Of a stretch of 64,000 nucleotides of DNA, positions 12,056-50,000 are shown in pieces. The position numbers and the translations under genes are program-made. The DNA is taken from the IMG/VR virus record IMGVR_UViG_3300032323_001800, positions 62,001 through 126,000 of that record; one strand, written 5' to 3'. The notes under the pieces were generated by a model. That model searched no databases, was not told the origin of the DNA, and saw nothing but the letters and a program-made list of their open reading frames with translations. Each line of letters starts with the position of its first letter. Positions within the stretch are counted from its first letter, which is position 1. The stretch is from a virus.

Positions 12056-12063
12056 TATTTATT
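12056..12063 (-). promoter_or_regulatory. Candidate late promoter octamer AATAAATA
   Basis: AATAAATA read on the minus strand overlaps the stop codon of the giant gene and lies 29 bases before the ATG at 12026, but only 5 before the ATG at 12050. It matches the T4-type late -10 octamer (TATAAATA) at seven of eight positions. Confidence 0.45.
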
Positions 12064-15000: not shown

Positions 15001-18000
15001 AATTTTGTCCCTGAAGAACTGTCACAAACTCAGTATAATTTGTATCGTCAATTCTTTCGTAAATTCCTGTAACAGAATTTCTTAGATAAATGTTGATTGC
15101 TTGCCCATCTAGTGGCACTTCGGGCAATACAAACATATTTGTAGTTCCGTCGGCAGTAATATAAAAATCTGAATTTAAAGAATCAACGCTATCCCAGCCT
15201 TCCGTAAACCAAGGCAGTGCATCCCAGCCGCCGCTGACGTCTAGTGTGGCACCTTGAACTACTACTCCACCAAAGTCTATTCCTGTTATTAGTTGAGAAT
15301 AGTCGTAATCAATCTTAATGATTTCTTGCGTAATATCATCTCTAATAACAGTTTTTTCTAATCCTATCATTCCATCTGTAGGATTATAATATTTGTCTAT
15401 CCTGTTGAGAGAATCTAATGATTGGTCATTTTTCTCATATTCAACAGTTACAAGAATGGTTTTTGCTGGTGCTGAATTAAGTGTTAGTTTTCCTACTTGG
15501 ATAGTTAATCCATTAACTTTAGTAGTATCAATAGATACACTGTACTGGCCGGTTAATAGCTTTTGTCCTGGTGAAGTAGTTGTATCAGTTATTAATTTTG
15601 TATAGACATTTACCTTTGTCTTGTCAAGTGCTGCAGGATATTTTAACTCAAATACAGTCTTACTTCCAGTGCCAGTAAAGGTTTGAATTTCTTTAAATTT
15701 CTCATCCAACGCCTTGGCTGTAAATGTAGATGATTTACTTACTCTATCAAATTTCATCGATACATCAAAAGTTCTTGCTTTTGTGTTTCCAATTACCGCA
15801 ATAGCAGTTGCAGCGTTTGATAAGTTAGTTCCAACCCCGCCTACTAATTTTACCGTTGGCGCAGAAATATATCCAGTTCCGCTGTTAGTTAATACTATTC
15901 GACTAACTTTTCCATTAGAGATAAATGCTCTAGCAGACGCACCTGTGCCACCGCCTCCTTCAAATACCACAATCGGAACAGTTTTATATCCGGATCCAAC
16001 GTTAGATATTTGAATGTCTATTACTGAGTATTTGTAATTGTCTAACCAGTATTTCCATGGATATGTATCAATTTCAGTAGAAATAATTTTAACAGGTTCA
16101 ATACTGTTAGTATCAGGATTATATACCGAAGGAACATCGAAGTCGCTGAAACTTGTCGATGTATTTTCAGTTCTAATATATCTACTTGTATATTCTCGTA
16201 TCTTAGTTCGGTACGGTTTGACTTCTTCTATATACTTTTGATAGCTAGGTAAATTGTCACTCTTGTAAGTGATCTTTTGTGTTAAATTTCCAACGTTATG
16301 GATGGCATTAACAAAACTTGTTTTAAACGCCCAATCTACATATAACTGTTCTGAAAATGCATAATGAATATTAGCAAAGAAAAGTTTATTCCATTCTACT
16401 CGCAGATCATCTAAGAAAATATCATTCTTAACAGATTCTAAAATAATTCTAAACTCTCTAGCCGAAGACTGATCGTATCCATTACTATCAAATGATGTAG
16501 TCTTATCATATCCTGTAGAATTACTTTCAGTGTTTATAAAACTGTCATTTATTTGTATTGTTCCGTTTGATCTACCAACAAGTCGATACTTATCGAGTAT
16601 AGTTGAATTTTCTATAGACGTTCTTTCTAGTACTGCCCAGTTGCCAGCACCATACTCTCGTATTCTTAGCAATTGACCAATTGTTAAATTAACTTCAGAT
16701 TCTTGATATAGTCCTACAATTTCATTAGTGATTCTAGATTTTTCTGAGAACCCTTCAGCCCACCAATCAATAGTAGTCCAGTAATTTCTTGTGTTGTATG
16801 ATTGAGTAGCAGTTCTATAAAACTCTTTTGCTTTTTCATTCCAGCTGTAGATGCTCCAATAATTTCTCACAGTTGAATCAGATTTAACTAAAACTGCAAA
16901 TTGTCTAACAGACAACGCTGCTGAAAGATATTTTGCTCCAGAATTTACAACAGTCACAGATATTACTCTACCCAATCGATCAATGTTGGCACGCAATATC
17001 GCGCCTGATCCTGATCCAGTAACTATAATTGGAGGAGATACCCTATATCCATATCCGGCTTCAATAACATCTACAGTATCAATTTTTCCATTAGCAATAT
17101 TTGCTTTTAAAATTGCGGGAGATATCTTTGACGTAGAAACTAATGCTAATTCTTCTTTAGTTTCTACCGTTCTATCATATAGATTTTTAACATCTGCCGG
17201 GGCAACTTCAAAAGAATTTAATCTAGTAGTATTAATAATTTCTGCAAACGGTCTTGTTTTTAAAATATTATTAATAAAATCTAAAGTTATTTGTGTTGCT
17301 TTGTTTCTATCAACAAACATACTCTGACGAGGTCTGCTTGATAAACCATACTTAAATTTTGTTGGCAGTTTAAAATCTGGAACATCTTTTCCTGTAATAT
17401 CGTAACCAATTAATGAATCAATCCATTTATTTTCTAGTTCAGGAGACGGCAGGCTGTCTGCTACTCCTTCGGTTAGAAGCTGATATTCTCTATGGACTTG
17501 ATTAATTTGTTTGCTGTTTTTATAGAACTGAATAGTAACAGATACATTATTTCCAGTAATTGCTATTGTCGGATTATATACTGCAATTTTTTCGTTGTCT
17601 ATTAATGCCGCAAAAGTTATTCCTGTACCTAAAGGATTTTGAATGTATTGAGCTACTGAACTTGCAGCAATCTTTCTAAAGTTTTTATTAGTTGGTAACG
17701 TTATTTTATCTTTAACCCAGTAATAATAAATTCGAGAACTTACTCTTCCAGTCAAAATATCTACATTTTCTTTAACAGAGTATGAACTATTATCAGGGTA
17801 TAGTGGTGTTCCCGATACTCCAACACTGAATGCGTCAGCTGTGACTGTTATATCAGCCCACTCACTAGGAAGATATTCAGTTTCAACCCATTCATACACA
17901 TCAATCGACGATCCGTATGCTAAAGAGTTCCATCCTCCTAACTTGTAAGAAATGTCACCCTGGTTATAATTTGCCCACTTAACTGTGCTTGTGTCCCACC

Positions 18001-21000
18001 ACAAATAACCTACCATGTTGTCAAACCAGGCTCTAGATGCGTCAGCAGAAGTACCAACTGAATAAACTGCAGGATCGTAGGATGTTTTAAATTTTAATTC
18101 TTGTTCAGCGACTGATAAAATTTTTCCGTTTAACGGATCTATTACATCAACGTCTAATAGTTTAATATTTGAATCGGAATCGAATAAAGATAACGATTTT
18201 AATAATGTTAAATCAACTACAGGCTCTTGGCTACGTAACGGTGACCAGGCATTGATATTTTTATATTTTCTAAATGTTTGAACCTTACCTATGACTGAAC
18301 CAAGAAATGCATCTTCCGAAGATGTAAATGCAGGAGATCCTATAATCACTCGATCGTCAAAACATGCTAAAGATTTTCCAAAATTTTCTCCAGTGATTAA
18401 ACCTTCATCAAAAGATTCAGATAATATAAACGTATCACCGTATCTATTATAGATATAAACTTTACCAGTAATTCCTACCGGGTCTCTAAATCTTGTTAGC
18501 AAGTAGTCAAAGTTAGTTTCGCCTCTATCAAAATTTATTAATGTAGATGCTACAGCCGAACCTGCAGTAATGGCTATTGTGTCAGCCGTTGGAGATACTG
18601 ATATTTCGTCTCCGAATCTTTCAAAGAAATCAAAAGAGTAACTTTCTAATCGTTGAATATATTCAAATCTATTATTAACATTTTTAAAGACGAACACAGC
18701 ACCTTTGTCTTTTTCTTTAATGTCGGCATCCGGAGCTGAAACAAATAATAAATTTCCTTCACGGCTTAATACAACCTTAAATCCAAGCTCGTCTCCGGAC
18801 TCTAGATCGTCAGTGATAATATCATTATCGTCGATCGTTTGAACTAGTTCATAAATGTTTTCTTGATTTTTTAGATAAACAAATACTGCTCCAGTATTAT
18901 ATTCAGATGCGTTCGATACCTTTTCCCATACTGTTCCACTAACTGGAAGTTGATTTAAACTTTCAATAGCTAGTAATTTATAATATGTTGGTTGTGCTGA
19001 CTCGACAATTTTTACAACATCGTTACGATTATATTCTTGATAAGACTTCCATGTACCTTTATAATTTTCTAAATCCGCAGTATCGGCAAACGGAGCTCCT
19101 ACTACTAACAACGACGCATCTGAGGACATTGTTGTAGAATATCCATATCGATCTCCTACATTTAATAACTCAGGAGTTTGATCTCCAACCAAACCAACTT
19201 CAATAGATGAACCATCATTCGGATAAGCAGGCTGTATTGGCAATATACCAGCATTGAGAGAATTAACTAATTCCCAACCAACTGTGTCTGTTGTAATCGT
19301 TGTACCGCTATTTTTAAAATACGGAACAGTTGATCTCCAATAGTTATTATTATACCATACTATCGATCCAGTTGCATAATCGTTGGCTGGGTTAAAAATC
19401 CCTACAAAGTTATTATCATCCGATTGTGTCCAATTAATACCGTCAAAACTGTATAGATAAATTCTTCCTTTGCTATCTAACGCACCAGGAGCAGAAATAG
19501 CCATATAATATGCTTCTGATGCTCCTCCTATGTTAGATCCTAAAATTCTAATTTGGTCTCCAACGTTATATCGTGTTCCTCGAACATTAACCGTAGCAGC
19601 ATATCTGCCGTTAGATCTAACCAGTTCAAAAATTGCTCCTGAACCGCTTTGACTAATGTCAGTACCAATAATATCCGAATATGACCCTAACCCTACTGAT
19701 GTTCCTACGAAACTAACTCCGGATTTAGCAACACCTGAGATAGTAAAGTTTCTGATACTGTTATCAATAAACTTCATTGGATTAGCAGATGGCGATGATG
19801 CTGATGTTAAAGTTACAATTTGTTTTGTTAAAGGGTCACTGTAAATTGTAAAAGATGTACTGTTAATAATCTCTTTTACAAAGTACTGGCTTCCTGAAGA
19901 AATCCCGCCGACCGCACTGCCTGTAAAGACAATAGGCATATCAACTCTTAATGTAGCTGTAGATCCTACAACAACCGTTGAGTTAGTTTCAAATGTTCCA
20001 ACAGTGGTTATTGGTAAGTTTGGGCTTACTCTAATTAAAAGATCGTTAGCCGGTGTGTCACCGCCCAGTGTTGTACCCGGAACCAAAATAGTAGATCCCG
20101 ATCTATATTTTGTCAAGTCTCCTAAATTGCCATCCGATGTTGATGTTACATAGGCTTTCCATGGAGTTGCTAAACTTAAAAATGTGCCTGCTGAAACTTC
20201 TTCCCAATATTCAAGATTAGTAGGGAGAATCGGTTCTGATACTTCCCAATAGTCAGTATCAGTTGGTAACACAAATTGTACTTCTTGTATTGATCCATCC
20301 AGTCCATTTTTAACTCTATAGTACGAAGACGATCTAAACGGATACTTAACCACATCTCCTGTATAGTAAGTGGCGTTCGAGTCCCACACACCTCGATCTG
20401 TCTGGGTATCTTTTATACAGCCATAATATCTTAAACCTAATCCTGGAGCAGAATATGAAACAATACTTCTTCCAGTGTATCCCACACCTCTGTTGATTAT
20501 TGCTACTGCGTATGTATTTCTAGTACGTGTTACATTAAACACAGCCTCATTAGTTGGAATAGTGGAGTTAATACCTGTAAGATTAGAATATGTTTCAGAT
20601 CCAATAATTGAACCGCCGGTGTCAATGGCTGTTACTGTAATTAACAAATCGTTTTCTGGAGACGACCCACCTACCTGTGTTCCTAATACATTTATTTGAT
20701 CACCTAACGCATATCTTGTACCGCCGTTTCTCACGGTTACTACATATGTGCCACCGGATTTTGTAATGTTAAACGAAGCGCCATTTCCTGAATCACTGAT
20801 GTCTGTACCACCAATGTTTTGGTATGTGGCATCTTTTAATCCGCTAGTTCCCACAGCATCAACAATAGTAATACCGCCGTTAGGGTCAATTGCTTTAACA
20901 ATTAACGTTACATCACCGCTGGTGCCTTCAATACCTTCTTGTTTTCCGATTGAAACACTGCTACCAAATAGTTCGTTAGCTTCCGGGCGAGGACTGATAA

Positions 21001-24000
21001 TTGTTTTTCTATATGTCCATTGACCTTGTGTAAATTCAAAAATATCAACACATCCCTGTTTAGGGTATCCTGGATTAGTACCTATTAAGTTCTTAGCTGC
21101 AGGTTGTGCTTCATGTAGATCAACTGGGCTCCAGTCATCGCTACTTAGGTTGATTGTGCTGCCGTCACCTAAAATAGGTTTGTTAGCTTTCCATAATTTT
21201 CCTGTGTAAATCACAGTGTCGTTGGTATTATATTCTGCCGAGGTACTATACTGCCCTTTAAATCCAGAAGGAATTCCAGAAGCAGTTGGTGACGCAACAA
21301 GTAACCATCTTCCGTCCGGACTTACCGATAACACAGTTCCGTATGATCCTAATAGCTCAGGTGCAATTTCAAATATAGGACTTAATACTTGACTAGGTAC
21401 TAGGCCGTCTAAACTCTGTGTATAAACAATTACAGCAGAATCTCTCGATGTATCGTTAGAAGCAACTCTAGCACCAGGATTAGACACAATAGTCTGATCC
21501 CTTGACGGAACGTAAGCAACCGCACTGCCCATGCTTGCTGGGAACGAAACACCATATTCTGATATTCCTGTTTTAGAATATTGTTTTGTACGCTGTAATA
21601 CTTCCCAATTTCCGGTAGCATTTTTATCTAACCATACTTTAGAACCTAATGGAAGAATTGAAAAATCTTCCTTTATTAATTCGTCAGTGCTGGATATTCT
21701 CGCTGGCAGGAAAACACCAACATTACAGAAAGAACTTTGATCTATTTCTGGTGGTTCTTCAAATCCCAATACCTCTATAACGATTGTTGTAGTGTTTGAC
21801 GCTTTAATTTTATAAAAACCTGTCAACCCTTTAATATTTGTTAAACCAATAATAGTTCCGGTTGTTAAACGATGTGGTCTGTTAGTTGTTATAACTGCAT
21901 TTCGTTGATCAATGGCCGCAACCGCAATTACTGTTACATTGGTTATTTTATATCGTAAAATATCCCAACCACCCGTTTCATACGTTATCCAAATTACAGA
22001 ACCATCATTAAACTGTGTTACATCGTTTCCGATTAATTCATCAAAATTCTTAATTACAAAATCTACGTCATCGACATTAACATACCCTGCTCCGGAATTA
22101 GGAACAGAAATATTTTTAGTTTGAATAATTTGATTTTTACTATCACCAATTTGATAATTTTGGTCTGATAATACTATGTAATTTTTATATTCATTTTGAT
22201 CAATTGAACGATCATTTAAAATAATAGGTTGAGGATTTAGTTTAAATTGGTCTTTGCCTATTTTAAATTCAATTTCATTAAATTGATCTGTTCCACCAAT
22301 TTGTCCTAATCTAAATGCCCATTCTTCATTTATTTCAATAGCATCGCTATCAACAGAACTTATTTTATCAAATATTTTTTTGATAGAATTGTTAGTTCCT
22401 TTTTCTCTAATAAATCCTTGATATAATCTGTATTGTGTTACATCGTCTTCGGCAAGATCTCGTAGATAATCTCTAGATTGATATCCAATAGAATGTCTAG
22501 CTAATTCTCGCTGACTAGATCCCAACCCTTCCGAATCTAAATCATAAAAGTCTTCAAACTGACTTATCCTATAATCAAAATTTGCTACTAAACCAGTTTC
22601 AGGACGACTATCTAATTTTTCCCAGTTGCTAGGATTAAATTCAGCCTCTCCCGATTGTGCTACTTTGCTTACGTAATTAAATTCTTTATAGGTAGCAATA
22701 TCTCCTAATTTGTAATCAACAAACGGTGACCACGGTTGGATATTGACATCGTCGAATAAAAATCCAGGGCTAGTATAATCGCCATCCCAATCAGTTGTTC
22801 TAAAACCTAAAACTTTGATTCTCTGCTGTCTATATCCTGGACCCTTGTCAAACATGACATCATTGAACATAGTTCTATCAGAAAATACAACTACGTGTTC
22901 TTTTAACACATAGTTAATTCTAGCAAAATATATGCCGTCTCTGATATTAACTGGAGCTATAGCAAATTCGTTGTATCGTCTTATAACATCAATGTTTGCC
23001 GGTAATAATTTAGTTCCGTCGCTCTTTAAAATTGTATATTCATAAAATGAATCTAAAAGGTTATCTGCAACTCCGCCGGTAGATATTAATTTTAATTTAA
23101 TGGCTGCAGGGCTTACTGATAAGATTGCTCCCGGTGCCCAGTTATGACTGGTCCAGAACATAAATTCTTTTGATGTAGTTTCCCAGTTAGCAACTGATTG
23201 AAGTTCGCTGCTGAACTCGTCGAATACAAATCCAAGATCTTTTAATCGTTCTCCGTATCCTAATAAGAAATCAACAACATCTTGAACTGTTTCTAACGCT
23301 GTTCCGTATGATAATCTCTTTAAATCTGTCTTGTCAAAATATGTTCTTTTGGTTGCTTCAATAGCACCAACAAGAGGAATTTGAGTTATTCTAACCCATT
23401 TAGTTGCATCAAACTGGTCTTCCGATGTGTGGGCTGTTACAGATCTAAAAAATTGCTCGTTGTATCTTACAATTATACCTTTGGTATAGAATTGATTGTT
23501 TTGCCACGCAACGTATGTTTCGCTAACACCGCCTACAAATATTTTAGGATCTGCGTTGGTTGGTAACGAAGGATAATATTCAAAATATGTGTTTAGTCGA
23601 TCATATCCTCTAATAATCCATGCTCTAGCCGACTTTTCAAGTATAACTCCGGAATATGTAAGACTCTGTACAGATGATCCGATGTTAAAAAATATGTCAT
23701 AATTTTCTGGAGGTATAAAAACACTGCTTGTAGATGCCTGTGGATTTTTAGAATCTAAAATATATTTCTGTTGTGACTTATCAACAAATCCGCCAATTCT
23801 ATTAGACATGTTAATATCAAAATTTTCTAATTTTTCAATTAATGATGTTTTGTCTTTTAGATCAACTTTTAAATAATTGTCAATATAGTAAAACAATCCA
23901 GACGGAGTAATATCGCCATTAAGGATTTCCAGTAAGTCAGAAATTTTAACAAAATAATTACTGTTAGAACTTACAAGCTGACCTAATTTATTTTTCTTAA

Positions 24001-27000
24001 CTTTAGTTTTATCTAAACTTGCAGGAATAAATTCAAAAGGTCTTAATAAGCACAAAGCAAAAATAACACTGAACGGATAAGCAGAACTTTTTCTCCAAGC
24101 ATACTCTGCCGGAGCGACATCACCAAATTTAAAATCTAGTTGATTATTAAATGTAGAATAATTGTCAAGAACATTTAATAGTAACGGATTTTTTAATTCA
24201 CCGTCTTCATCTGTAGGAATAATATCTAGTAAATTAGATCTCTTATATCTGTCATGCTGGCCGGCTCGTGGGCCTTGACGAATTATACCGTCCTTTAAGT
24301 CTTCCCATAAAATTAAGTTTCCGCTGGTATATGGAGCAGGACCGTATTCATCTTCCCACCATAGTGGTTTTTGTGTAAAGCCCAACATTTCCCAAGGTGA
24401 AATATGTGGTCTGTCAGTATCATATAAAGATAAAAACATACCTCGCCAAAAGCTAGGCAATTCTTCTCGAGTAGTTTTATCGACTACTTGAGAATATGTA
24501 TAAGTGAATGGGTTTGACACTTGATAAAAATTATTACCAAATAGATCAATGTCAGTAGTGGATGCCCATCTTAAAAATTCTTGATTTATTACTGTATTAA
24601 AATTAGACTGTGTAAAGATTCCAGTTTTATAAAATGACGATAATGTTTTATCAATATCAAATGTTTCTTCGTCATATTCAATTTTTATGTTATTATAAAT
24701 TCGTTTTTCTAATTCTAATAATAAATCGTCTCTAAAGTCGTTGAATGCAATTGTTATACTGCCGTCGTGGCCTCTTATTACCTTTTTAGGTTCTAGGTAT
24801 GTAGTATCAACATAGATTTCTGGTTCGTATTTTTTATACATTCCCATCTTGGTAGGTGTGGGAGGTACAAAGTTAAATGCTGTTGAAAAATATTCTTTAA
24901 TTTGAATATTATCGTTTTCATTTAATGGTTTTAAAATTTTAACAAAACCAAACGTAGCATCAAACTCGTAGTCTTTACCGTTAATGCCTTGTTGATTGTT
25001 TATATACACATAGGTTGCTTTCGATGATATTACCGATAGATCAAATTTGTCACCTAAGGAAAACACATTGATACCAGTGTCTTCAACAGTATAATCAATA
25101 GTCGTAAACGCACCAGAACCTACCATGTCAGAATCAACAAATGGTGATTTAATTGTTTTTGCCTGAGAAATAGTTGTTAAAATATCATCAACAAATTTAA
25201 CAGGATCTCCGTTATCATATGGCAATTCTATAGCTAATGTTAAAAAATTATTTTTAAACTTTTCGTATTCAGCTGAAGCAAATCTAATCGAATTTATTAT
25301 ATTTGTTTCTTTATTGCACAACAAATTAATCGACAAAGTTGGAATACCGGAATGTTTTAAAAATCTTCTTCCGTACTGTTCATAATCAATTAAATCTCTT
25401 AAATTGCCGCTACCGGGATATGTTCCTTCAAATCCATCGACTAGCTCAACCATTGATCCTAAATGATCGTTAAGCTGTCCTAAAGTAAATGACTGTAGAT
25501 CTTGATTTAACGGATTTCTTTCAAGACCAAACGGGATTTCATAATAACCATCAACTGGTTCAGCGTCTGAATAAACTTTAAAGGTCACAGTGTCACCTGA
25601 TATCAGTTTATTACTAACAGTTATTTTCTTTTTATTGTTTTCAATAACAGTACTAATAGGAGTTACTAAATTTCCATTAACATAGCAAATTGTTTTATCT
25701 CTAGTAGATGAATTCCAATCACATGCTGTTGAAATTACAACATTGGTATCTTCTAATACTGTAATCGTTTGAATAATTGCCTGCAAATATTTGCTGTCAA
25801 TCAGTGTCCATCCGTTTTCGTATGTGTATTCAGTTAATGATCTATTATTTCTATAATACCCTTTATTCACTAATTCTGTGATAATTTGAAAATTTTCTTG
25901 GTATGAGAAGTTATCACGGTCCCAGTCAAATTCAAACTGGATGTCTCCTGAATTGTTAATATTCAGATAGCTTAATGGAAACTCGAGTTCGGTATCATTA
26001 TTTCCCGTACCAATCACATAACTAATAATTTCTGATCCAGTAAATGACGAAGTGTTGTACTTTGTTAAATCTCCTACAGATACCCCGTCAATGTCAAATA
26101 CATCAAATAGTGGCGGTTGATTTACCTTTGTTTTTTCTTGGCTTCTAATCCATGATTCACCGTTAAAGTGAAACATCTTATTTCTATTTTCTACACCACG
26201 TTTAACAACCAGCCCTTCACCGGGATTAGAAACAGTGTCTGTAGTCTCTATCAAACTAATTTGTCGTCTATTAACAATATTAGTACTAGCTTGTACTGTA
26301 ATAAATTTAACTTCAAATATTTTATTTTTTACTAAAGGATCAGTGTCTGCTGTAAAAAGAATTCGATATCCGTCTGTTAAAGGCTCTCCGTCAATGTTAT
26401 AACCAGATGACCCTTCGATGACTGAAAATATATCAGTAGTAAAGTCGTCAATTAAATCAACACTGGTTTTAGCAACAACGCCATGATTAAACAGTTGAAG
26501 GTCGGCATTAAATTCAATAATTGGTCTTTTTGCTCTTAGATTTTCATCTATTTTTGCATCAGTGTTATTGAGCTCTCCGGTATATTCTAATACAGATCTA
26601 TGGAACCATCTATTATATCTGCTCCATGGATTTTTATCTAAACTAGATCGATTAATTGTGATATAGTCTTTGCTTCTTGGATACGATAGTGATTCATCAA
26701 ACGGTTGGTCATCGAATCCGCCATCGTCAAACAACACTTCTGGATTAGGATTCGAAATAGGTGGAAGTTCAATGGTTTCCCAATTAATTAATCGTATAGC
26801 ATCTCCAACACCCTCGATTACCCAAGATCCTTGTTTATAAATTGAAGGTGATGTTTGTCCTTCAAATTTAACTCTTAGACCATTGGTAAATTTAACTCCG
26901 TTCGAACTAATATATTTTTGCTTGCCTATAACATCTTTCTCAATATCTAAGAAAGTGTTTTCTTTAATTTCAGCGATCCTAAATGTTCCAACTCTATCTC

Positions 27001-27760
27001 GAGTGGTCGAACTTTGATAATATAATAATTCAGGAGCATCGTTAGGTACTTCAAATATAACTTTTCCTACTTGAGTTCCGCTGTTAGTCACTCCCTTGGT
27101 ATAATTTGATTGCTCACCTAATACATTTGAGGTTCTGATAAAAAACGGGTCGCCTGGCGAATTTACGTCAAATTCGTAAGTTTGGCCGCGGTATAAAGTA
27201 ATTGACGGATTTTTCTTAAGTCCGTCTGGATAAAAAATCCACTCTGATGTTCCGCTGGTTCTCACACGGTACGATGATATTGTTTCTCTTGCTTGTCCTT
27301 GAACAGCAACCGAATCAACTCCAACTGGTTGCCAATAATATTCTCTGTAATTAACAAATTTGTCCCAGTCAATAGGAGGAGCCCAAGCATATGAATCATT
27401 GCCTGTAATTTGATCATCTCTTTCTAGACTGTTGCCAAAGAATTTTAATTGATTTTTAAAATCAATATAATCGTTGAATTCAGAGATTCTATTGTTTTTT
27501 CTAACAACTACAGCAGGTTCTAATTGATAAGCATCACGTAATGTATCGGCTCTATCTATATAGACATCAGTCGAGTTAAAAGTTTTTCCGTACTTTCTTC
27601 CAATGTATCCAGATAACTTTTCTAAAGTACCTGGTTGTACAAGAGCGTCTAACGTAGCACCTAAGAATTTTTCATTGGCGTTAGTCTGAAAAATATCAGG
27701 TAACAGTTCAATAGTTCTTCTAATAGGCAATCCGCTAGATTTAAAAACTTTATTTTCCAT
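12062..27760 (-). CDS. Giant 5232-residue tail/baseplate protein
   Basis: One uninterrupted frame follows gp6, where T4 has gp7 (about 1030 residues). The N-terminus (SSGLPIRRTIELLPDIFQTN, LGATLDALVQPGTLEKL, YIGRKYGKTF, WDKFVNYREYYWQPVG) resembles a large virion protein I recall from T4-like cyanophages. Visible parts: about six CBM5/12-like modules between residues 1415 and 2953 (pattern Y-x-x-GD-x-V-x-Y...Y...W); FG-GAP-like blades between about 2070 and 3160 (SVSPDGRWLLVASP, MSSDASLLVVGAPFAD, LSREGNLLFVSAPDAD); G-x-GY beta repeats; a long helical hairpin near 4250-4450; and C-terminal GDGSxR-type fibre repeats. It probably encircles or decorates the baseplate and may bind surface glycans. 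No enzymatic motif is recognised. Start: ATG at 27760, two bases after gp6. Confidence 0.85.
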   Translation of the reverse strand: MENKVFKSSGLPIRRTIELLPDIFQTNANEKFLGATLDALVQPGTLEKLSGYIGRKYGKTFNSTDVYIDRADTLRDAYQLEPAVVVRKNNRISEFNDYIDFKNQLKFFGNSLERDDQITGNDSYAWAPPIDWDKFVNYREYYWQPVGVDSVAVQGQARETISSYRVRTSGTSEWIFYPDGLKKNPSITLYRGQTYEFDVNSPGDPFFIRTSNVLGEQSNYTKGVTNSGTQVGKVIFEVPNDAPELLYYQSSTTRDRVGTFRIAEIKENTFLDIEKDVIGKQKYISSNGVKFTNGLRVKFEGQTSPSIYKQGSWVIEGVGDAIRLINWETIELPPISNPNPEVLFDDGGFDDQPFDESLSYPRSKDYITINRSSLDKNPWSRYNRWFHRSVLEYTGELNNTDAKIDENLRAKRPIIEFNADLQLFNHGVVAKTSVDLIDDFTTDIFSVIEGSSGYNIDGEPLTDGYRILFTADTDPLVKNKIFEVKFITVQASTNIVNRRQISLIETTDTVSNPGEGLVVKRGVENRNKMFHFNGESWIRSQEKTKVNQPPLFDVFDIDGVSVGDLTKYNTSSFTGSEIISYVIGTGNNDTELEFPLSYLNINNSGDIQFEFDWDRDNFSYQENFQIITELVNKGYYRNNRSLTEYTYENGWTLIDSKYLQAIIQTITVLEDTNVVISTACDWNSSTRDKTICYVNGNLVTPISTVIENNKKKITVSNKLISGDTVTFKVYSDAEPVDGYYEIPFGLERNPLNQDLQSFTLGQLNDHLGSMVELVDGFEGTYPGSGNLRDLIDYEQYGRRFLKHSGIPTLSINLLCNKETNIINSIRFASAEYEKFKNNFLTLAIELPYDNGDPVKFVDDILTTISQAKTIKSPFVDSDMVGSGAFTTIDYTVEDTGINVFSLGDKFDLSVISSKATYVYINNQQGINGKDYEFDATFGFVKILKPLNENDNIQIKEYFSTAFNFVPPTPTKMGMYKKYEPEIYVDTTYLEPKKVIRGHDGSITIAFNDFRDDLLLELEKRIYNNIKIEYDEETFDIDKTLSSFYKTGIFTQSNFNTVINQEFLRWASTTDIDLFGNNFYQVSNPFTYTYSQVVDKTTREELPSFWRGMFLSLYDTDRPHISPWEMLGFTQKPLWWEDEYGPAPYTSGNLILWEDLKDGIIRQGPRAGQHDRYKRSNLLDIIPTDEDGELKNPLLLNVLDNYSTFNNQLDFKFGDVAPAEYAWRKSSAYPFSVIFALCLLRPFEFIPASLDKTKVKKNKLGQLVSSNSNYFVKISDLLEILNGDITPSGLFYYIDNYLKVDLKDKTSLIEKLENFDINMSNRIGGFVDKSQQKYILDSKNPQASTSSVFIPPENYDIFFNIGSSVQSLTYSGVILEKSARAWIIRGYDRLNTYFEYYPSLPTNADPKIFVGGVSETYVAWQNNQFYTKGIIVRYNEQFFRSVTAHTSEDQFDATKWVRITQIPLVGAIEATKRTYFDKTDLKRLSYGTALETVQDVVDFLLGYGERLKDLGFVFDEFSSELQSVANWETTSKEFMFWTSHNWAPGAILSVSPAAIKLKLISTGGVADNLLDSFYEYTILKSDGTKLLPANIDVIRRYNEFAIAPVNIRDGIYFARINYVLKEHVVVFSDRTMFNDVMFDKGPGYRQQRIKVLGFRTTDWDGDYTSPGFLFDDVNIQPWSPFVDYKLGDIATYKEFNYVSKVAQSGEAEFNPSNWEKLDSRPETGLVANFDYRISQFEDFYDLDSEGLGSSQRELARHSIGYQSRDYLRDLAEDDVTQYRLYQGFIREKGTNNSIKKIFDKISSVDSDAIEINEEWAFRLGQIGGTDQFNEIEFKIGKDQFKLNPQPIILNDRSIDQNEYKNYIVLSDQNYQIGDSKNQIIQTKNISVPNSGAGYVNVDDVDFVIKNFDELIGNDVTQFNDGSVIWITYETGGWDILRYKITNVTVIAVAAIDQRNAVITTNRPHRLTTGTIIGLTNIKGLTGFYKIKASNTTTIVIEVLGFEEPPEIDQSSFCNVGVFLPARISSTDELIKEDFSILPLGSKVWLDKNATGNWEVLQRTKQYSKTGISEYGVSFPASMGSAVAYVPSRDQTIVSNPGARVASNDTSRDSAVIVYTQSLDGLVPSQVLSPIFEIAPELLGSYGTVLSVSPDGRWLLVASPTASGIPSGFKGQYSTSAEYNTNDTVIYTGKLWKANKPILGDGSTINLSSDDWSPVDLHEAQPAAKNLIGTNPGYPKQGCVDIFEFTQGQWTYRKTIISPRPEANELFGSSVSIGKQEGIEGTSGDVTLIVKAIDPNGGITIVDAVGTSGLKDATYQNIGGTDISDSGNGASFNITKSGGTYVVTVRNGGTRYALGDQINVLGTQVGGSSPENDLLITVTAIDTGGSIIGSETYSNLTGINSTIPTNEAVFNVTRTRNTYAVAIINRGVGYTGRSIVSYSAPGLGLRYYGCIKDTQTDRGVWDSNATYYTGDVVKYPFRSSSYYRVKNGLDGSIQEVQFVLPTDTDYWEVSEPILPTNLEYWEEVSAGTFLSLATPWKAYVTSTSDGNLGDLTKYRSGSTILVPGTTLGGDTPANDLLIRVSPNLPITTVGTFETNSTVVVGSTATLRVDMPIVFTGSAVGGISSGSQYFVKEIINSTSFTIYSDPLTKQIVTLTSASSPSANPMKFIDNSIRNFTISGVAKSGVSFVGTSVGLGSYSDIIGTDISQSGSGAIFELVRSNGRYAATVNVRGTRYNVGDQIRILGSNIGGASEAYYMAISAPGALDSKGRIYLYSFDGINWTQSDDNNFVGIFNPANDYATGSIVWYNNNYWRSTVPYFKNSGTTITTDTVGWELVNSLNAGILPIQPAYPNDGSSIEVGLVGDQTPELLNVGDRYGYSTTMSSDASLLVVGAPFADTADLENYKGTWKSYQEYNRNDVVKIVESAQPTYYKLLAIESLNQLPVSGTVWEKVSNASEYNTGAVFVYLKNQENIYELVQTIDDNDIITDDLESGDELGFKVVLSREGNLLFVSAPDADIKEKDKGAVFVFKNVNNRFEYIQRLESYSFDFFERFGDEISVSPTADTIAITAGSAVASTLINFDRGETNFDYLLTRFRDPVGITGKVYIYNRYGDTFILSESFDEGLITGENFGKSLACFDDRVIIGSPAFTSSEDAFLGSVIGKVQTFRKYKNINAWSPLRSQEPVVDLTLLKSLSLFDSDSNIKLLDVDVIDPLNGKILSVAEQELKFKTSYDPAVYSVGTSADASRAWFDNMVGYLWWDTSTVKWANYNQGDISYKLGGWNSLAYGSSIDVYEWVETEYLPSEWADITVTADAFSVGVSGTPLYPDNSSYSVKENVDILTGRVSSRIYYYWVKDKITLPTNKNFRKIAASSVAQYIQNPLGTGITFAALIDNEKIAVYNPTIAITGNNVSVTIQFYKNSKQINQVHREYQLLTEGVADSLPSPELENKWIDSLIGYDITGKDVPDFKLPTKFKYGLSSRPRQSMFVDRNKATQITLDFINNILKTRPFAEIINTTRLNSFEVAPADVKNLYDRTVETKEELALVSTSKISPAILKANIANGKIDTVDVIEAGYGYRVSPPIIVTGSGSGAILRANIDRLGRVISVTVVNSGAKYLSAALSVRQFAVLVKSDSTVRNYWSIYSWNEKAKEFYRTATQSYNTRNYWTTIDWWAEGFSEKSRITNEIVGLYQESEVNLTIGQLLRIREYGAGNWAVLERTSIENSTILDKYRLVGRSNGTIQINDSFINTESNSTGYDKTTSFDSNGYDQSSAREFRIILESVKNDIFLDDLRVEWNKLFFANIHYAFSEQLYVDWAFKTSFVNAIHNVGNLTQKITYKSDNLPSYQKYIEEVKPYRTKIREYTSRYIRTENTSTSFSDFDVPSVYNPDTNSIEPVKIISTEIDTYPWKYWLDNYKYSVIDIQISNVGSGYKTVPIVVFEGGGGTGASARAFISNGKVSRIVLTNSGTGYISAPTVKLVGGVGTNLSNAATAIAVIGNTKARTFDVSMKFDRVSKSSTFTAKALDEKFKEIQTFTGTGSKTVFELKYPAALDKTKVNVYTKLITDTTTSPGQKLLTGQYSVSIDTTKVNGLTIQVGKLTLNSAPAKTILVTVEYEKNDQSLDSLNRIDKYYNPTDGMIGLEKTVIRDDITQEIIKIDYDYSQLITGIDFGGVVVQGATLDVSGGWDALPWFTEGWDSVDSLNSDFYITADGTTNMFVLPEVPLDGQAINIYLRNSVTGIYERIDDTNYTEFVTVLQGQNLNERRNNLEDQQTTLESQIINQNLIKQQKLNLLNQAQIDRNSANTLLLNKQLEISSIESDITQAENDRGDLQVELSVLNNQKSSIEIQIASTPPTIFVPPSNVIPNPAYQTLVNQLDAIVSAIDDKQTEINDKQDEIDALNVTLDALEAAEAPLILALSNANSALATATTEYNTATQSVVLLEQTLDQVLQNILVLSDAPIDTAVMDTFIGDGSTRSIVIPPAVTIQDGDVLIFRPDTSDGSLSITDANLIDADVSGGLLSSNTTGNLVAPNAINGAYSTATGLTAAEIVIEGDKFISPDQVPAPEENIPGQVLESVSIKVFHSDRQGAPAILSRIYTADGTTILYNIGQTILENSSVIVFVDKVKQEVDVDYTFVSDTQQIRFLTAPINNSLIEIFSISIGGVEILDYREFVGDGSNRYFLTAASYAEAGRVFATVDYSTTPVAFVNSNGVVNNIDKALVEFGIAPPNGSKVSIIVLSGESGTDNSIVRANYQTITVTNTSQRTYAVTDFVELQASATGNVIVELNNKLLRCADTVIQTYDGTNRIVNVGRDPLKTFGGIVQAQVRAYINNIPLIFGIEYEFSAATNSVNVIKQNINHGDVIRVETYEAVQYEIIDNNLVLSNDVILTAGDKIDIIWFDRYSSVDLVKDVRTGGQLNYPLQRAPLGVSYVWVYKNGDRLTPDVDFYIDYPRNTVYLKDSNTEDDEIEIISFATEVYKQPFAFEIFKDILNSHHYNRYTVTDVKLTKELNYYDDEMEVNDATTLSTPQLKLPGIVTINGERIEYLRKVGNVLKDLRRGTLGTSIAITHPVESYVVDVGYREIVPYKESQDRYDFVADGSSEIYTGLPFVPAARKNQQGILVEFTYTNSIPDNFYPCDTIEVFVQGRRLRKDPITVYDSTVGSYSPAGDVTLEAEFSVDNQTNAIRITQTPPAGARITVIKRTGKVWYNQGADEVTTGVTLSQNTTPIAKFLQQRTTKLL

Positions 27761-41193: not shown

Positions 41194-41426
41194 GCACGGA
41201 CAGTCACGATCGAATGATCAAAGCATTTCAAGAATATTTCAAATGGCAAGAGCGATTTGAATACAAAGGCTCAGACGAAGCAGGCATCAAGGCACGATAT
41301 TGGTTATCAGAAATACGTAACGAGGCATCAACTAGGCGTGTAGAAATACAAGATAAAAGAGAACAAAGAAAAGCAGCCAGAAAAGGCATACTAGGCAGAC
41401 CTCCCAAGGTAACTAAAGGTACATGA
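41190..41426 (+). CDS. Small basic conserved protein with GRPPK tail
   Basis: A 78-residue protein starting at the ATG that overlaps the previous stop (ATGA). It is helical and highly charged (YWLSEIRNEASTRRVEIQDK, REQRKAARKG), ending GILGRPPKVTKGT. The GRPPK core recalls an AT-hook, so DNA binding is possible. I recall similarly small proteins after gp46 in marine T4-like phages, all unnamed. Its place between the recombination operon and a GIY-YIG nuclease suggests a nucleic-acid role. That is inference only. Confidence 0.65.
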   Translation: MSTDSHDRMIKAFQEYFKWQERFEYKGSDEAGIKARYWLSEIRNEASTRRVEIQDKREQRKAARKGILGRPPKVTKGT

Positions 41427-41911
41427 CATGGATATATCAGAATCAAACTGTAGAAGAACTACCCGAAGAATGCGTGGGCTTCGTCTATGTCATTGTCAAT
41501 AATATCTCTGGTAGAAAATACATAGGCAAAAAATTAGCAAAGTTTGCAAAAACTACCTACAAAGTAGTCAAACTAAAGAACGGAACTAAGAAAAAGAAAA
41601 AAATTAGAGGCAAAATAGAAAGCGATTGGCGTGATTATTACGGTTCAAACATAGAACTTAATAAGGACGTTGAACAGCTAGGCAAAGAAAACTTCACCAG
41701 AGAAATCATCTATTACTGTAATTCTAAAGCAGAATGCAGTTACATCGAGGCAAGAGAACAATTTAATCGTAAAGTTTTAGAATCTAATGACTGGTACAAC
41801 GGTCATATACAGGTTCGAGTTCATGGCTCTCACATAATAAAATCCCAACTTTTAATAGAATCACAGACAGACCAAAGTACTACACAGGCTCAAGAGAAAA
41901 AGGCAAAATAA
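41423..41911 (+). CDS. GIY-YIG-type putative endonuclease
   Basis: This 162-residue protein has the GIY-YIG-like start GFVYVIVNNISGRKYIGKK (residues 19-37). A lysine-rich insertion (KKKKK) follows, then DYYGSN, LGKENFTREII and a Glu in CSYIEAREQFN (about E109) where the family has its catalytic glutamate. The first motif reads V-Y-V rather than G-I-Y, so activity is uncertain. Such proteins are either homing enzymes or repair nucleases in phages. It is coupled by ATGA to the basic protein and is followed by a 500-base gene-free region. The C-terminal ~25 residues are Gln/Thr-rich and unlike the family. Confidence 0.75.
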   Translation: MTWIYQNQTVEELPEECVGFVYVIVNNISGRKYIGKKLAKFAKTTYKVVKLKNGTKKKKKIRGKIESDWRDYYGSNIELNKDVEQLGKENFTREIIYYCNSKAECSYIEAREQFNRKVLESNDWYNGHIQVRVHGSHIIKSQLLIESQTDQSTTQAQEKKAK

Positions 41912-43590: not shown

Positions 43591-43767
43591 TTAAAAGAAC
43601 GGTAGTCCTGATTTTTTAGTTGTTTCAAAATTTTCTTTGATTATATCGTCTATAATATCTCTTTCGTCAGAAGTTAAATTCATAGACTCGGCGTAGCTAA
43701 TACCGCCTCTCATATACCAAACAGTTCTAAGAGCGTTAGCTTTTATTATCTTGACTTCTTTTTCCAT
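43591..43767 (-). CDS. Short ORF fused by frameshift to gp26-like protein (T-type extension)
   Basis: The ORF gives 58 residues from the ATG at 43767 or 64 from a TTG at 43785. Its core is ANALRTVWYMRGGISYAESM followed by NLTSDERDIIDDIIKENFET and a terminal GLPFF. It is read in the -1 frame of the gp26-like gene, and that frame is open from the heptamer at 43821 through to this ORF's stop. The natural product may therefore be a ~360-residue fusion, like lambda gpG-T and other tail assembly chaperones. Independent translation is also possible (GGAGG lies near the ATG). The 3' end abuts the convergent gene at 43590. Confidence 0.75.
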   Translation of the reverse strand: MEKEVKIIKANALRTVWYMRGGISYAESMNLTSDERDIIDDIIKENFETTKKSGLPFF

Positions 43768-43805
43768 GGCCTCCGACTCCGCCAAGATGCTAGGGATATC
43801 TAGTG

Positions 43806-44672
43806 TCAGGAGGCGGCGCCGAAAAAATCGGCTTGGTCAAACGATAAATTAACTTGATACTGATGCTTACAATGTGGGCATTCAGTTGATAACGCATCAA
43901 TCTTTCCAGCATCTCTTGATTTAGATACAGCATCCTGTACTAAAGAAAATATCTTTTTATCTGTGTTAGCTAAAAATTCTTTAATAAACGCAGTATCAGT
44001 AACAATACCCGCAGAACATTCAATCTTGTCAATTGAATCAGACACAGTGTCTATGGTTAATTCAGTTAATTTAATAAAACTAGTTTGAAATAATTCTAAT
44101 TTTTTATCATCGGATATTGATTCATCATTGACGATTGAAAAAATTCTCTGTTGTTCAAAGGTTTTTAATGCTGTTCTTGTAATTTGATCATAGGTTAAAG
44201 GTCTGATCCAAAGCAGCATGTCATTATCTACTTCAAGACGAGTTGAAAACTCTATCTGTCTTAGGCTGTCTAATAGATTTCGAAGATCAACCATTTTTTC
44301 GTCTTGCTCATTACAGTTAGGACATGTAGTACCTACCTCCATTTCTTGACCAAATGTAGCATATCTTATAGATATTAGTACTGCATCGACGTCGATAGCT
44401 GGCATGAACCAAGGATTTTTAATATTGGGCACACAGCTTTTTATAACTTCGACCGTTGAAGCGCCATTCATAAGCGCATCCGGTGTGCGCATCAACAGCT
44501 CGTCTTTAGCAGTCATGGCAAACACCGGTAACTCTCCATTTTCCGGCATGTCTAATGCGTTTGGTGGATAGAATTTTCCTTTGCTAGGCAAGGTCATATA
44601 GATCTTTGGTTGTCTAAAAAACTGCGATAGCGGATTTTTTACCTGATTGTTTTGTTCCATTTTTTTATCCAT
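43806..44672 (-). CDS. 26: Baseplate hub / tail assembly protein gp26-like
   Basis: A 288-residue protein from the ATG at 44672; the ATG at 44660 (MEQNNQVKN) is an alternative. It contains FFRQPKIYMTLPSKGKFYPP, then MPENGELPVFAMTAKDELLM, RTPDALMNGASTVEVIKSC, VPNIKNPWFMPAIDVDAVLI and IRYATFGQEMEVGTTCPNC. I recognise this as the T4 gp26-type hub family (T4 gp26: 208 residues). Two CPxC pairs (TTCPNC and ECPHCKHQ) suggest a zinc-binding insertion and end. T4 gp26 and gp51 assist hub and tape-measure assembly. The last codons contain the slippery heptamer TTTTTTC. The gene is divergent from the tape measure, with its own TATAAATA late octamer 23 bases upstream. Confidence 0.82.
   Translation of the reverse strand: MDKKMEQNNQVKNPLSQFFRQPKIYMTLPSKGKFYPPNALDMPENGELPVFAMTAKDELLMRTPDALMNGASTVEVIKSCVPNIKNPWFMPAIDVDAVLISIRYATFGQEMEVGTTCPNCNEQDEKMVDLRNLLDSLRQIEFSTRLEVDNDMLLWIRPLTYDQITRTALKTFEQQRIFSIVNDESISDDKKLELFQTSFIKLTELTIDTVSDSIDKIECSAGIVTDTAFIKEFLANTDKKIFSLVQDAVSKSRDAGKIDALSTECPHCKHQYQVNLSFDQADFFGAAS
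43821..43827 (-). promoter_or_regulatory. Programmed -1 frameshift site (TTTTTTC)
   Basis: The minus-strand heptamer T TTT TTC is in the correct phase of the gp26-like frame (GAT TTT TTC) four codons before its stop. A -1 slip continues as CGG CGC CGC CTC and stays open into the 58-residue ORF. Downstream, GCCTCC can pair with GGAGGC about 6 bases after the heptamer, with a nested CTAG/CTAG hairpin in the loop. The region is GC-rich against an AT-rich background. Confidence 0.75.
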
Positions 44673-44739: not shown

Positions 44740-47427
44740 ATGACCGGAAGAGTTGAAATATTTGGTGGGCAATTAGATGGATCAGTGTTATCCAATGCTG
44801 CTACCGAATCTACCTTAAGAGAATTAGTTAATGCCATTAACGGGGTTACTGGCGCAGGTGGTCAAGGCGGTGGCGCTGGCGGAGGTGGTAGCGGAGCTGC
44901 TGGTGGAGTTACCGGTGGGTTTAAAGGCATATCAAAAGTAGCATCAACACTAGCTGGCAGTTTAGGTTCTATGACTAAACTTGTGGTTTCTGGAAATCAA
45001 AGCTTAGGCACATTTGTAGGATCATTAAAAACCGGTATCAAAGGTATTGATAAATTTACAGATGCTGCCGCAGGATTTGTAAAATACTTTGAAGAAGCAC
45101 AGGGAACTTTAAGAGATTTAAGTAAAAACGGTGCTGCATTTAATAACAGTGTATTAGATTTAAAAGAAGCAGCCAGCACAGCTGAAATGGAATTAACACA
45201 ATTTCAAAAGGCTATTCAAATGAACGCCAAAGGATTGCTAGGATACGGTTTAACTTTAACACAGAGTGCGCAACGTGCCTCTAGAATTATCAAAGCAGGC
45301 AGCGATTCAGGTGTAACTACTGCTTTGATGAATTTGGGAATGAGTTCCGAAGAAAGCAGAGAATACATTATGGAATTTTCTGCGTCATTGGCAAAAAGTA
45401 ATAGAGTTCGTGCAACATCGGACGTAACGTTAGCACAAGCATCATTATCATATTATAAAGAACTTGATGCTATAGCAAAAATTACGGGTAAGTCACGCGA
45501 GCAGCAAGAAGAACAACTGAAAGAATTAACTGCTGAAGCAGTGTTTAAATCAAAATTAGCTAGATTAGATGTAGATAAACAGAAAGAAATTCGAATAACA
45601 ATGGCTAAGATACAGGCCAAACAAGGAATGGAAGCAGCACGAATATATAGAGACCAGATAATCGGAGTTTCAGTTCCATTAAGAAAGGCTGCTAGAATGC
45701 AGACAGCATTGTTTAGTGACTCAACAGAAGCTAATAGAAGATTAGCAGATGCTCAATTACGAGGTGTTGTTGGTCAAGAACGAATTAATGAAGTTGTGAA
45801 TAACGGAACAGTTACTAACGCAAAAGCTGCACAGGGATTAGAACATCTTGCTGCCGTAGGAGTAGCAGGTGGCGAATCTGCTGCTGCGGTAGCGGACGCA
45901 TACAAGAGTGTTGTTACACCTATTCTAGACATGGGTGAAAACGTCGATGAAGTTAGTAACGCATCGTTGACGGCTAAAGATAAAGAAGCAAAGGCAGAAC
46001 AGGAACGTATAGGAGTAATGGATAAGACCTTAAATCAATTCCAGGACGCAGTCACACGAGTTCAGGCAGCTCTTGAACGATTAAAAAATACAATTATGCG
46101 AGTAACTACTGAGGCATTAGAACCATTAATTACATGGGCTGGAGAGTTTTTTACAAAAGCATCTCATCTAGCGTCGCAGGGATTAGACAAATTAGCAGAT
46201 TGGATCGAAAGATCGTCTCATCAGTTTGGAACATATGTCGATAAATGGTGGTTTTCTATTAAAGAATTCTTTGGGCCTAAGCTTTTTGTTAAGGTAGGGT
46301 TAGTTTTAGAAAATGGATTTTTAAATATCATGGCCAATGTCATGGAAGCAATTGGAAAGCAGCTCGATAGGGTTGGGTTAGGCGGGCCTATGCTACGGGC
46401 TGCTAAAAATATGAGAGATGCTATAGTAGAAAATACCAGAGCATTTGAGGAAGCTAAGGAAGCAGAAAAGGATCAACTAACTAAAGACAAAGAAGCATTA
46501 GATGCTAGGTTGAGAGTTAGAGAAGCTGAACAAAGAGCAATTGTAGCTGCGCAGCAACAAAGAAGTGCAGGCCGGAGGGAAGCTGCTAGCGCAAGAACTG
46601 CTCCGGCAGAAGCGCAAGCAGGAGTTATTGCTCATTTACAAAAATCAGGTATAACAGATCCTAGAGCAATCGCTAACGTTCTAGCAATGATTCAGGGTGA
46701 AACTGGATTTAGACAAAGAAGTGAGGATTCGCTTGCCGGCACATCAGTTGGTGATATTAGAAATCGAATATTTAAAGGTAATCGAGGTATAGCATCACTA
46801 ACTGATGATCAAATCAACGAAATGAAAAAAGGTGATTCTGCTGGAATATACAATATTGCCTATGACGACAAATATAGAGATCCAAAACATAGACTGGGCA
46901 ATACACAATATGGAGAAGGATTTAAATATCGAGGACGAGGATACCATCAACTTACTGGCAAAGGAAATTACGCAGCAGCATCTAAAGCATTGTTTGGAGA
47001 TGATAGATTAGTTCAAAATCCAGATTTAGTTAATGATCCAAAAATAGCCGGAATGGTAGCAGGTTGGTATTACTCAACAAGCAGTCATGCTAAGGGAAGA
47101 GATCTTACTAATTTTAAAGATGTATACGGTATGACTTCGGGCAACAGTAATAACACCGCTGAGTTATCACGAAGACAGGGATATGCTGACCAATTTTTAC
47201 AACAAATGGGTCCTCAACGAATGGGAAATACCAATCAAGGACCTGCAATTACTGTACCGCCTCCACAATCATCAACAAACCAAGAATCAGCAGTAAATCC
47301 TGTTGCTAATTTAAATAGTAGTATAGACAATATGGTTGCTCTGATGCGAGAACAAATTACACAACAGAAAAATTTAGTTACTGCTGTCAAACGATTAAAC
47401 GGTAATGTACAGACATCAGTTACATAA
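44740..47427 (+). CDS. Tape-measure protein with C-terminal GH19 hydrolase domain
   Basis: An 895-residue protein. After a Gly-rich N-terminus come ~550 helical residues with hydrophobic patches (ITWAGEFFTKASHLASQG, FFGPKLFVKVGLVLENGFLN) and charged coiled coil (REAEQRAIVAAQQQRS), as in tape measures. From about residue 625 is a GH19-like domain: ANVLAMIQGETGF with a candidate catalytic E654, then GEGFKYRGRGYHQLTGKGNY with E726, and LVQNPDLV. GH19 phage domains cut peptidoglycan. T4's tape measure gp29 has no such domain; here it likely replaces the lysozyme missing from the gp5 homologue and would be delivered to the cell wall at infection. It is divergent from the gp26-like gene and 14 bases upstream of the portal gene. 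Confidence 0.85.
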   Translation: MTGRVEIFGGQLDGSVLSNAATESTLRELVNAINGVTGAGGQGGGAGGGGSGAAGGVTGGFKGISKVASTLAGSLGSMTKLVVSGNQSLGTFVGSLKTGIKGIDKFTDAAAGFVKYFEEAQGTLRDLSKNGAAFNNSVLDLKEAASTAEMELTQFQKAIQMNAKGLLGYGLTLTQSAQRASRIIKAGSDSGVTTALMNLGMSSEESREYIMEFSASLAKSNRVRATSDVTLAQASLSYYKELDAIAKITGKSREQQEEQLKELTAEAVFKSKLARLDVDKQKEIRITMAKIQAKQGMEAARIYRDQIIGVSVPLRKAARMQTALFSDSTEANRRLADAQLRGVVGQERINEVVNNGTVTNAKAAQGLEHLAAVGVAGGESAAAVADAYKSVVTPILDMGENVDEVSNASLTAKDKEAKAEQERIGVMDKTLNQFQDAVTRVQAALERLKNTIMRVTTEALEPLITWAGEFFTKASHLASQGLDKLADWIERSSHQFGTYVDKWWFSIKEFFGPKLFVKVGLVLENGFLNIMANVMEAIGKQLDRVGLGGPMLRAAKNMRDAIVENTRAFEEAKEAEKDQLTKDKEALDARLRVREAEQRAIVAAQQQRSAGRREAASARTAPAEAQAGVIAHLQKSGITDPRAIANVLAMIQGETGFRQRSEDSLAGTSVGDIRNRIFKGNRGIASLTDDQINEMKKGDSAGIYNIAYDDKYRDPKHRLGNTQYGEGFKYRGRGYHQLTGKGNYAAASKALFGDDRLVQNPDLVNDPKIAGMVAGWYYSTSSHAKGRDLTNFKDVYGMTSGNSNNTAELSRRQGYADQFLQQMGPQRMGNTNQGPAITVPPPQSSTNQESAVNPVANLNSSIDNMVALMREQITQQKNLVTAVKRLNGNVQTSVT

Positions 47428-49165: not shown

Positions 49166-49411
49166 ATGAAACTTTTAGAATTCTTTTATTTTAACGATCA
49201 AGCAAACGATTTTATCGATGATAAACGTTATGATAGCAGTCGCGACTCTGATGTAATGCAGAAAAGTGATACTAGAAAAGTTCGTTTGACACTAAAAGAC
49301 ATCAATATGCTTCGCAAACAAAGCGAAGCTCATCAGTTTGAGCAGGAGTCCGAAATGGAATTTGTAAGACAAATGTATGGACAACCACCTGCAGAACAAG
49401 CCCCAGTATAA
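49166..49411 (+). CDS. Small head-operon protein (gp67/68 position)
   Basis: An 81-residue charged protein: MKLLEFFYFNDQANDF, KVRLTLKDINMLRKQSEAH, then an acidic C-terminus. T4 places the small core proteins gp67 and gp68 between gp20 and gp21, and this gene lies in the same interval. I see no direct sequence match to either. A [LI]-x-E gp21 cleavage motif is not obvious apart from LLE at residues 3-5. It overlaps the following ORF by 35 bases. Confidence 0.6.
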   Translation: MKLLEFFYFNDQANDFIDDKRYDSSRDSDVMQKSDTRKVRLTLKDINMLRKQSEAHQFEQESEMEFVRQMYGQPPAEQAPV

Positions 49412-50000
49412 TACAGCATTCGTTTTAGGTAATGGTAAAAGTAGGTTACGTCTAAAGTTAGACGAACTTAAATTTCACGCATCTGTATATGGGTGTAATG
49501 CTTTATTTCGTGAATACACTCCTGATTATCTCATAGCCGTTGATGAAAAAATGGTTAGAGAAATAGAAAAAACTGGATACCATTTAAAGAACACAGTTTG
49601 GACTAACCCCAATAAAGGGGTATTAAAAATTTCTGGTTTAAACTATTTTAAACCTCATAAGGGATGGAGCAGTGGGCCAACAGCATTATGGTTAGCAGCA
49701 AAAAACAATCATGAAACAATATATATTTTTGGATTTGATTACGAGGGTATCGATCGAAAAGTAAATAATGTTTATGCTGATACAGCAAATTATAAAAAAA
49801 GCACAGATATTGCTACATATTATGGTAACTGGTTACATCAAACTGAACAGGTGATTCGAGACAATAAACACATTAAATTTGTTAGAGTTATTGATACACT
49901 TAACTTTAGACCACCAACGTTAAATCAAATTACCACTAACTTTGAACATATAAGTTATGATGAGTTTGAAAAGAAATTTCCAGGAATAATAATTAAATAA
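49377..50000 (+). CDS. DUF115 / sialyltransferase-like protein
   Basis: A 207-residue protein with the pattern FVLGNGKSRLRL (residues 15-26), VYGCNALFREYTPDYLIAVD, an aromatic/basic middle with PHKGWSSGPTALWLAAKN, then IYIFGFDYEG. The GNG-loop, the YGxN and DYxxxxD positions, the SSGxxA helix and the GFD strand are the layout of DUF115 and GT42-type sialyltransferase folds. It may transfer a sugar nucleotide-derived residue to a glycan or to a virion protein; donor and acceptor are unknown. Its start overlaps the preceding small gene and it lies inside the head operon, an odd place for a glycan enzyme. A weak terminator follows. Confidence 0.65.
   Translation: MDNHLQNKPQYNTAFVLGNGKSRLRLKLDELKFHASVYGCNALFREYTPDYLIAVDEKMVREIEKTGYHLKNTVWTNPNKGVLKISGLNYFKPHKGWSSGPTALWLAAKNNHETIYIFGFDYEGIDRKVNNVYADTANYKKSTDIATYYGNWLHQTEQVIRDNKHIKFVRVIDTLNFRPPTLNQITTNFEHISYDEFEKKFPGIIIK

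Follow-up and report, generated by a model that had tools for sequence, protein, structure and literature searches.

A probable programmed −1 frameshift in a gp26-family tail assembly chaperone gene of jumbo T4-like phages

A gene of the gp26 family in a jumbo T4-like phage is very likely a tail assembly chaperone gene of the TAC-N/TAC-NC type, whose two products would be made by programmed −1 ribosomal frameshifting. This reading comes from comparative sequence, namely the slippery site, its phase, the conserved −1 peptide, the downstream stem, the single gene copy, and a link to T4 gp51; from these features we infer that ribosomes slip at the site, how efficiently they do so, and that the products act as chaperones. 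We analyzed a 64,000-nt stretch of DNA (the window) within a virus record of 187,929 bp, itself a fragment; the window includes T4-like genes such as the portal gene. The chaperone locus lies on its minus strand. The zero-frame ORF (43806..44660, with an alternative ATG at 44672) encodes a gp26-family protein of 284 aa, the putative short chaperone form (TAC-N). Near its end it reads GAT TTT TTC GGC GCC GCC TCC TGA, which satisfies X XXY YYZ phasing and places the slippery heptamer T TTT TTC, assigned from sequence and conservation, in phase at 43821..43827, with the zero-frame stop at 43808-43806, four sense codons beyond it. All of these coordinates agree with an earlier note on this DNA, which had proposed an in-phase heptamer four codons before the gp26-like stop. 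Also as that note had it, the −1 frame runs without a stop into a 58-residue ORF: from the slip it reads TTT TTT CGG CGC CGC CTC CTG ... and stays open to the TAA at 43593-43591. This −1 frame extension (43591..43821) comprises 76 codons after FF, giving a predicted fused long form (TAC-NC) of 280 + 76 = 356 aa, close to the roughly 360 residues anticipated. The arms of the GC-rich stem that the note had placed about 6 bases past the heptamer are present as well (GCCTCC at 43814-43809, beginning after a spacer of 6 nt, and GGAGGC at 43774-43769), and the stem-loop they define (43769..43814) is a probable stimulator. The 58-aa ORF within the extension (43591..43767) opens with an ATG at 43767, preceded by a Shine-Dalgarno-like GGAGG, and this start is not conserved. 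The GGAGG coincides with the 3′ arm of the stem, a point absent from the earlier note, so translational coupling needed testing as a rival.

In the mechanism we propose, most ribosomes would read the zero frame to give the 284-aa, gp26-like short chaperone, and a minority would shift back by one base on T TTT TTC, with the stem-loop 6 nt downstream as an aid. Slipped ribosomes would bypass the stop four codons on and add a helical domain of 76 aa, yielding a 356-aa long chaperone that would be the counterpart of T4 gp51. Slippage would set the ratio of short to long form, and the two forms presumably act as lambda G and GT do, covering the tape measure protein and bringing in tail-tube subunits. 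These phages would have one slippery gene where T4 has two genes, 26 (short) and 51 (long).

We assessed the conservation of the site among protein relatives found by tblastn to 90 phage records. Relatives of the gp26-like protein occur in Rak2-like and other jumbo phages (Atu_ph07, Phosso, PA5oct, XaC1, CBB, GAP32, Vibrio 2.275, and 121Q); the eight isolate relatives share 28-36% identity with the window protein, and in all eight the heptamer is in phase and lies within an open −1 frame that begins just upstream. From an IMG/VR scan we kept the best 80 of 579 confirmed candidate loci, so that more distant members are under-sampled, and we combined these 80 with the isolates and one 595-kb metagenomic phage into a jumbo-type set of 89 loci. 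T TTT TTC is in phase and the −1 frame is open in 89/89 (79 unique −1 peptides), including one locus (L061) whose −1 ORF runs off the contig. A second scan, made with the Rak2-like set, found the site in 14 of 14 readable loci (L197-L210), 11 of them new and three of them repeats of 121Q, CBB, and GAP32. In cyanophages, all 80 readable loci have the in-phase T TTT TTC and an open −1 frame, as do Bellamy, S-8S53, and Rhizobium phage IC12. Alignment of homologues of both ORFs (27-57% protein identity) bore out the earlier reading: the homologues retain the heptamer and an open −1 frame, and none of those examined in the jumbo group and cyanophages has the two ORFs split by stops or joined at a non-slippery site. 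A search of cellular genomes returned zero relatives. Sequencing error and a pseudogene were also considered and were ruled out, since the arrangement is conserved in all relatives.

A single heptamer is weak evidence by itself, since NNT TTT TTC encodes 87 of the 218 FF dipeptides (40%) in neighbouring ORFs. The codon preceding TTT TTC is AAT, GAT, AGT, CAT, TAT, or GGT in the 79 unique sequences, always ending in T, and on this comparison chance does not account for a heptamer in every relative, even if independent lineages number only a few tens (0.4^20 = 1e-8). The six-T run is invariant, which would also suit transcriptional slippage on that run as the source of the fused product. We consider this explanation extremely unlikely. 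A run of six T's is rather short for a polymerase to slip on efficiently. In every case the run is closed by a C and codon phasing is kept, and a stem lies downstream at the spacing expected for ribosomes.

Conservation of the −1 peptide begins right at the slip, both in cyanophages and in the jumbo group, where it reads FFRxRIL...EIL...CWYMRG...EDREII..IKENLETTKKSGLPFF. Of the substitutions in the extension, 51% (662 pairs) are at −1 codon position 3, and nine base differences separate the extension of the window from that of a 95% relative (L001), 8/9 of them at position 3, with the peptide unchanged. Both marks of a programmed −1 site, heptamer phase and a coding −1 frame across relatives, are found here. 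The same comparison bears on translational coupling, a serious rival in that the window stem overlaps GGAGG: the second protein would start from its own ATG, GTG, or TTG, and ribosomes finishing the first gene would open the stem that hides the Shine-Dalgarno sequence. The window ATG at 43767 does follow the GGAGG overlapped by the 3′ arm, ATGA overlaps occur in some relatives, and the extension is annotated as a separate gene in the GenBank records of most isolates (isolate records either give it as a separate gene or omit it, and the fusion is annotated in none of those examined). On family comparison, however, coupling appears to fail. No start-codon position in the extension is common to the 79 unique sequences, four of which (L010, L021, L022, and L094) have no ATG, GTG, or TTG within the first 40 codons of the extension; the first extension residues, upstream of any shared start, are conserved; and coupling would leave the invariant T TTT TTC unexplained. 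We judge coupling very unlikely and retain −1 frameshifting as the preferred reading; in the window, a short product started on its own at ATG 43767 may still be made.

To evaluate the stimulator, we folded the 60 nt starting 3 nt after the heptamer and compared them with shuffles, using a segment from the same genes as a control. The mean fold z was −2.26 downstream of the heptamer versus 0.03 in the controls (Wilcoxon p 2e-13, uncorrected for phylogeny), with z below −2 in 52% of downstream segments versus 1% of controls. Pairing probability in the family profile reaches 0.83-0.88 at positions 14-19, which corresponds to a 6-nt spacer. The commonest stem, AGGATCTT pairing with GAGATCCT, has both-sided changes in 34 cells versus 13 expected, above all 500 shuffles, although kinship can inflate such counts, and it is 83% paired versus at most 56% when the arms are slid. 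In the window alone, the fold exceeds shuffles by a small margin (z about −1.1 to −1.3). When 73 sequences were folded jointly with RNAalifold, no single consensus structure emerged, a result probably explained by differing 3′ partners among subgroups, that of the window among them. A stimulatory structure 5-9 nt past the heptamer is evident for the family and weak in the window alone.

The 284-aa window protein matches PF12322 (T4_baseplate; E 1.1e-13, 51.8 bits versus a curated cut-off of 24.5) and phrog_150 (baseplate hub; E 7.4e-16). Comparison of the family profile with the single T4 gp26 and gp51 sequences gave weak results, so family membership rests on the PF12322 and phrog_150 matches. 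Both T4 gp26 and gp51 belong to PF12322; gp26 ends with the domain, and gp51 is about 48 residues longer. Over the 282 positions of phrog_150, the window protein and gp26 stop at 232 and 235, and gp51 reaches 280. One PF12322 copy is present in the window's own record (the 187,929-bp fragment) and in each of 20 relatives, versus two in T4, and the eight isolate records agree; no second, gp51-type PF12322 gene was found in the own record or in the 20 relatives. The heptamer is absent from the end of gene 26 at T4-type loci (L190-L192, L194, L195, and T4 itself), and the earlier statement that T4 lacks the frameshift holds, with two PF12322 genes there instead. The C-terminal part of gp51 and the cyanophage −1 ORF both match phrog_634 (1e-23 and 2e-28, respectively), and the jumbo fusions can be aligned with those of cyanophages along their full length (hhalign 97%, E 3e-11); a profile of the short −1 ORF compared directly with T4 gp51 gave no significant match. 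The most likely identity of the extension is the gp51-specific part, a link made through the cyanophages by way of phrog_634 and of full-length fusion profiles. The predicted structure of the zero-frame protein (pLDDT 85) is similar to those of other viral gp26-family proteins (TM up to 0.87), and that of the extension is a helical domain (pLDDT 91). Searches of the PDB by sequence and by fold returned nothing relevant; the model had no significant match there, nor was any resemblance seen to solved chaperones such as HK97 gp13. The two predicted products, of 284 and 356 aa, share an N terminus, and the long one carries a C-terminal domain, the pattern that defines TAC-N/TAC-NC pairs.

We also weighed whether slippage might be real and its product a component of the baseplate hub, not a tail assembly chaperone. 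The database names for the family are "baseplate hub," and older genetics placed T4 gp26 in the hub (PMC3004832). Against this, T4 gp26 and gp51 are counted among the hub assembly chaperones (PMC3004832), production of a short and a long form by a single gene is the chaperone pattern, and in one relative, CBB, neither CBB_250 (gp26-like) nor CBB_249 (the small ORF) is listed among the virion proteins (PMC5259590 Table 4). This is as expected of a chaperone, notwithstanding the RefSeq record, which names CBB gp250 "structural protein." We regard a hub component as unlikely and keep the tail assembly chaperone as the preferred identity.

The divergent neighbour on the plus strand (44740..47427; 895 aa) has a GH19-like domain at residues 725-785 and a PHROG match named "endolysin," which may mislead if the protein belongs to the tail. 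Its counterparts give weak tape-measure matches, and its positional counterpart in CBB, CBB_251, is abundant in virions, with 29 peptides (PMC5259590 Table 4). The neighbour is plausibly the tape measure, the role that the earlier note gave it; the Atu_ph07 paper predicts another gene, gp701, for that role. The chaperone gene is divergent from, not upstream of, this presumed tape measure. Elsewhere in the window, a single minus-strand ORF of 5232 aa (12062-27760) is flanked by a baseplate wedge gene and tail-fibre-like genes, a gene at 41423-41911 encodes a SegE-type GIY-YIG homing endonuclease (the name of its PHROG family, "NAD synthetase," is apparently a misnomer), and a gene downstream of the portal gene (49377-50000) has a weak sialyltransferase-like match.

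A second large marine clade of the same chaperone family (L218-L297, L212-L213, and L104) has its extension in the +1 frame, at a conserved site, TTY YTT TGG CCT. Among the 78 loci with TGG near the end (L218-L297 with L212), the codon before TGG is TTT in 65, CTT in 11, and TTC in 2, and the codon after it is CCT in 78/78. In 73/78 the +1 frame stays open for 45 codons or more; of the remaining five, three reach the end of their contig. The two loci with TTC in place of TTT before TGG (L257 and L259) have the extension in the −1 frame, and in L257 an in-phase A AAT TTC precedes it. A +1 arrangement near TTT C occurs in the Streptomyces phages BRock, LuckySocke, pSt2308, and GiJojo (L102 and L214-L216) and in Streptococcus phage GXN1 (L217). 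The +1 clade and these arrangements suggest that the direction of slippage changed and the junction stayed. Other junction variants include Alishewanella phage Slickus01 (L106), with a +1 extension; Stenotrophomonas phage CM1 (L103), in which T TTT TTT replaces T TTT TTC; and Pseudomonas phage Cygsa01 (L108), without the heptamer and with a TAATG overlap, possibly a coupled restart. We lean toward the view that slippage is usual in the family across T4-like phages and that its mechanism has changed over time, jumbo phages and cyanophages using −1 at T TTT TTC, the marine clade +1 at YTT TGG CCT, Streptomyces phages also +1, and T4 gene duplication instead, while the junction has stayed at the same Phe throughout.

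The mechanism and the role are already known for phage tail chaperones, and their occurrence in T4-like phages has been cited before. Like lambda G/GT and the TAC-N/TAC-NC pairs of long-tailed phages, the gene lies in the tail region and has a short protein, a slip near its 3′ end, and a minor long form made by slippage; it differs from them in being a PF12322 protein with CxxC pairs, in its T TTT TTC site, and in running divergently from the presumed tape measure. T4 gp26 and gp51 are of the same protein family, with gp26 ending where the slip lies and gp51 carrying a C-terminal extension, whereas in T4 they come from two divergently transcribed genes with no heptamer. The cyanophage gp26 and small "gp51" ORF have the same heptamer, the same −1 relation, and a homologous extension; they differ in being annotated as two genes and in an extension of about 60 aa versus 76. 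The chaperone genes of Vandenendeviridae and Andersonviridae (phage Adele, PMC12846349) are alike in their conserved poly-T −1 site, in a −1 frame open in every genome, and in the same inferred function, and differ in their GTTTTT motif and in belonging to an unrelated phage family (PMC12846349). The novelty implied in the earlier note does not stand, since the Adele paper (PMC12846349), citing Vladimirov et al. 2022 (pmid 34826709), describes poly-T slippery signals as known in T4-like TAC-N genes; the PRFect paper (PMC10885494), citing the same work, states that some T4-like phages use two genes, not frameshifting. For the uniform use of slippage across this jumbo-phage group, we found no account in the literature surveyed, to which Vladimirov et al. 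2022 did not belong.

For many jumbo phages and cyanophages, what has been named a "baseplate hub" gene and a small "hypothetical protein" would become a single tail chaperone gene with a frameshift. How T4 genes 26 and 51 arose also becomes testable: one slippery gene may have been duplicated into the two, or the two may have given rise to the slippery one.
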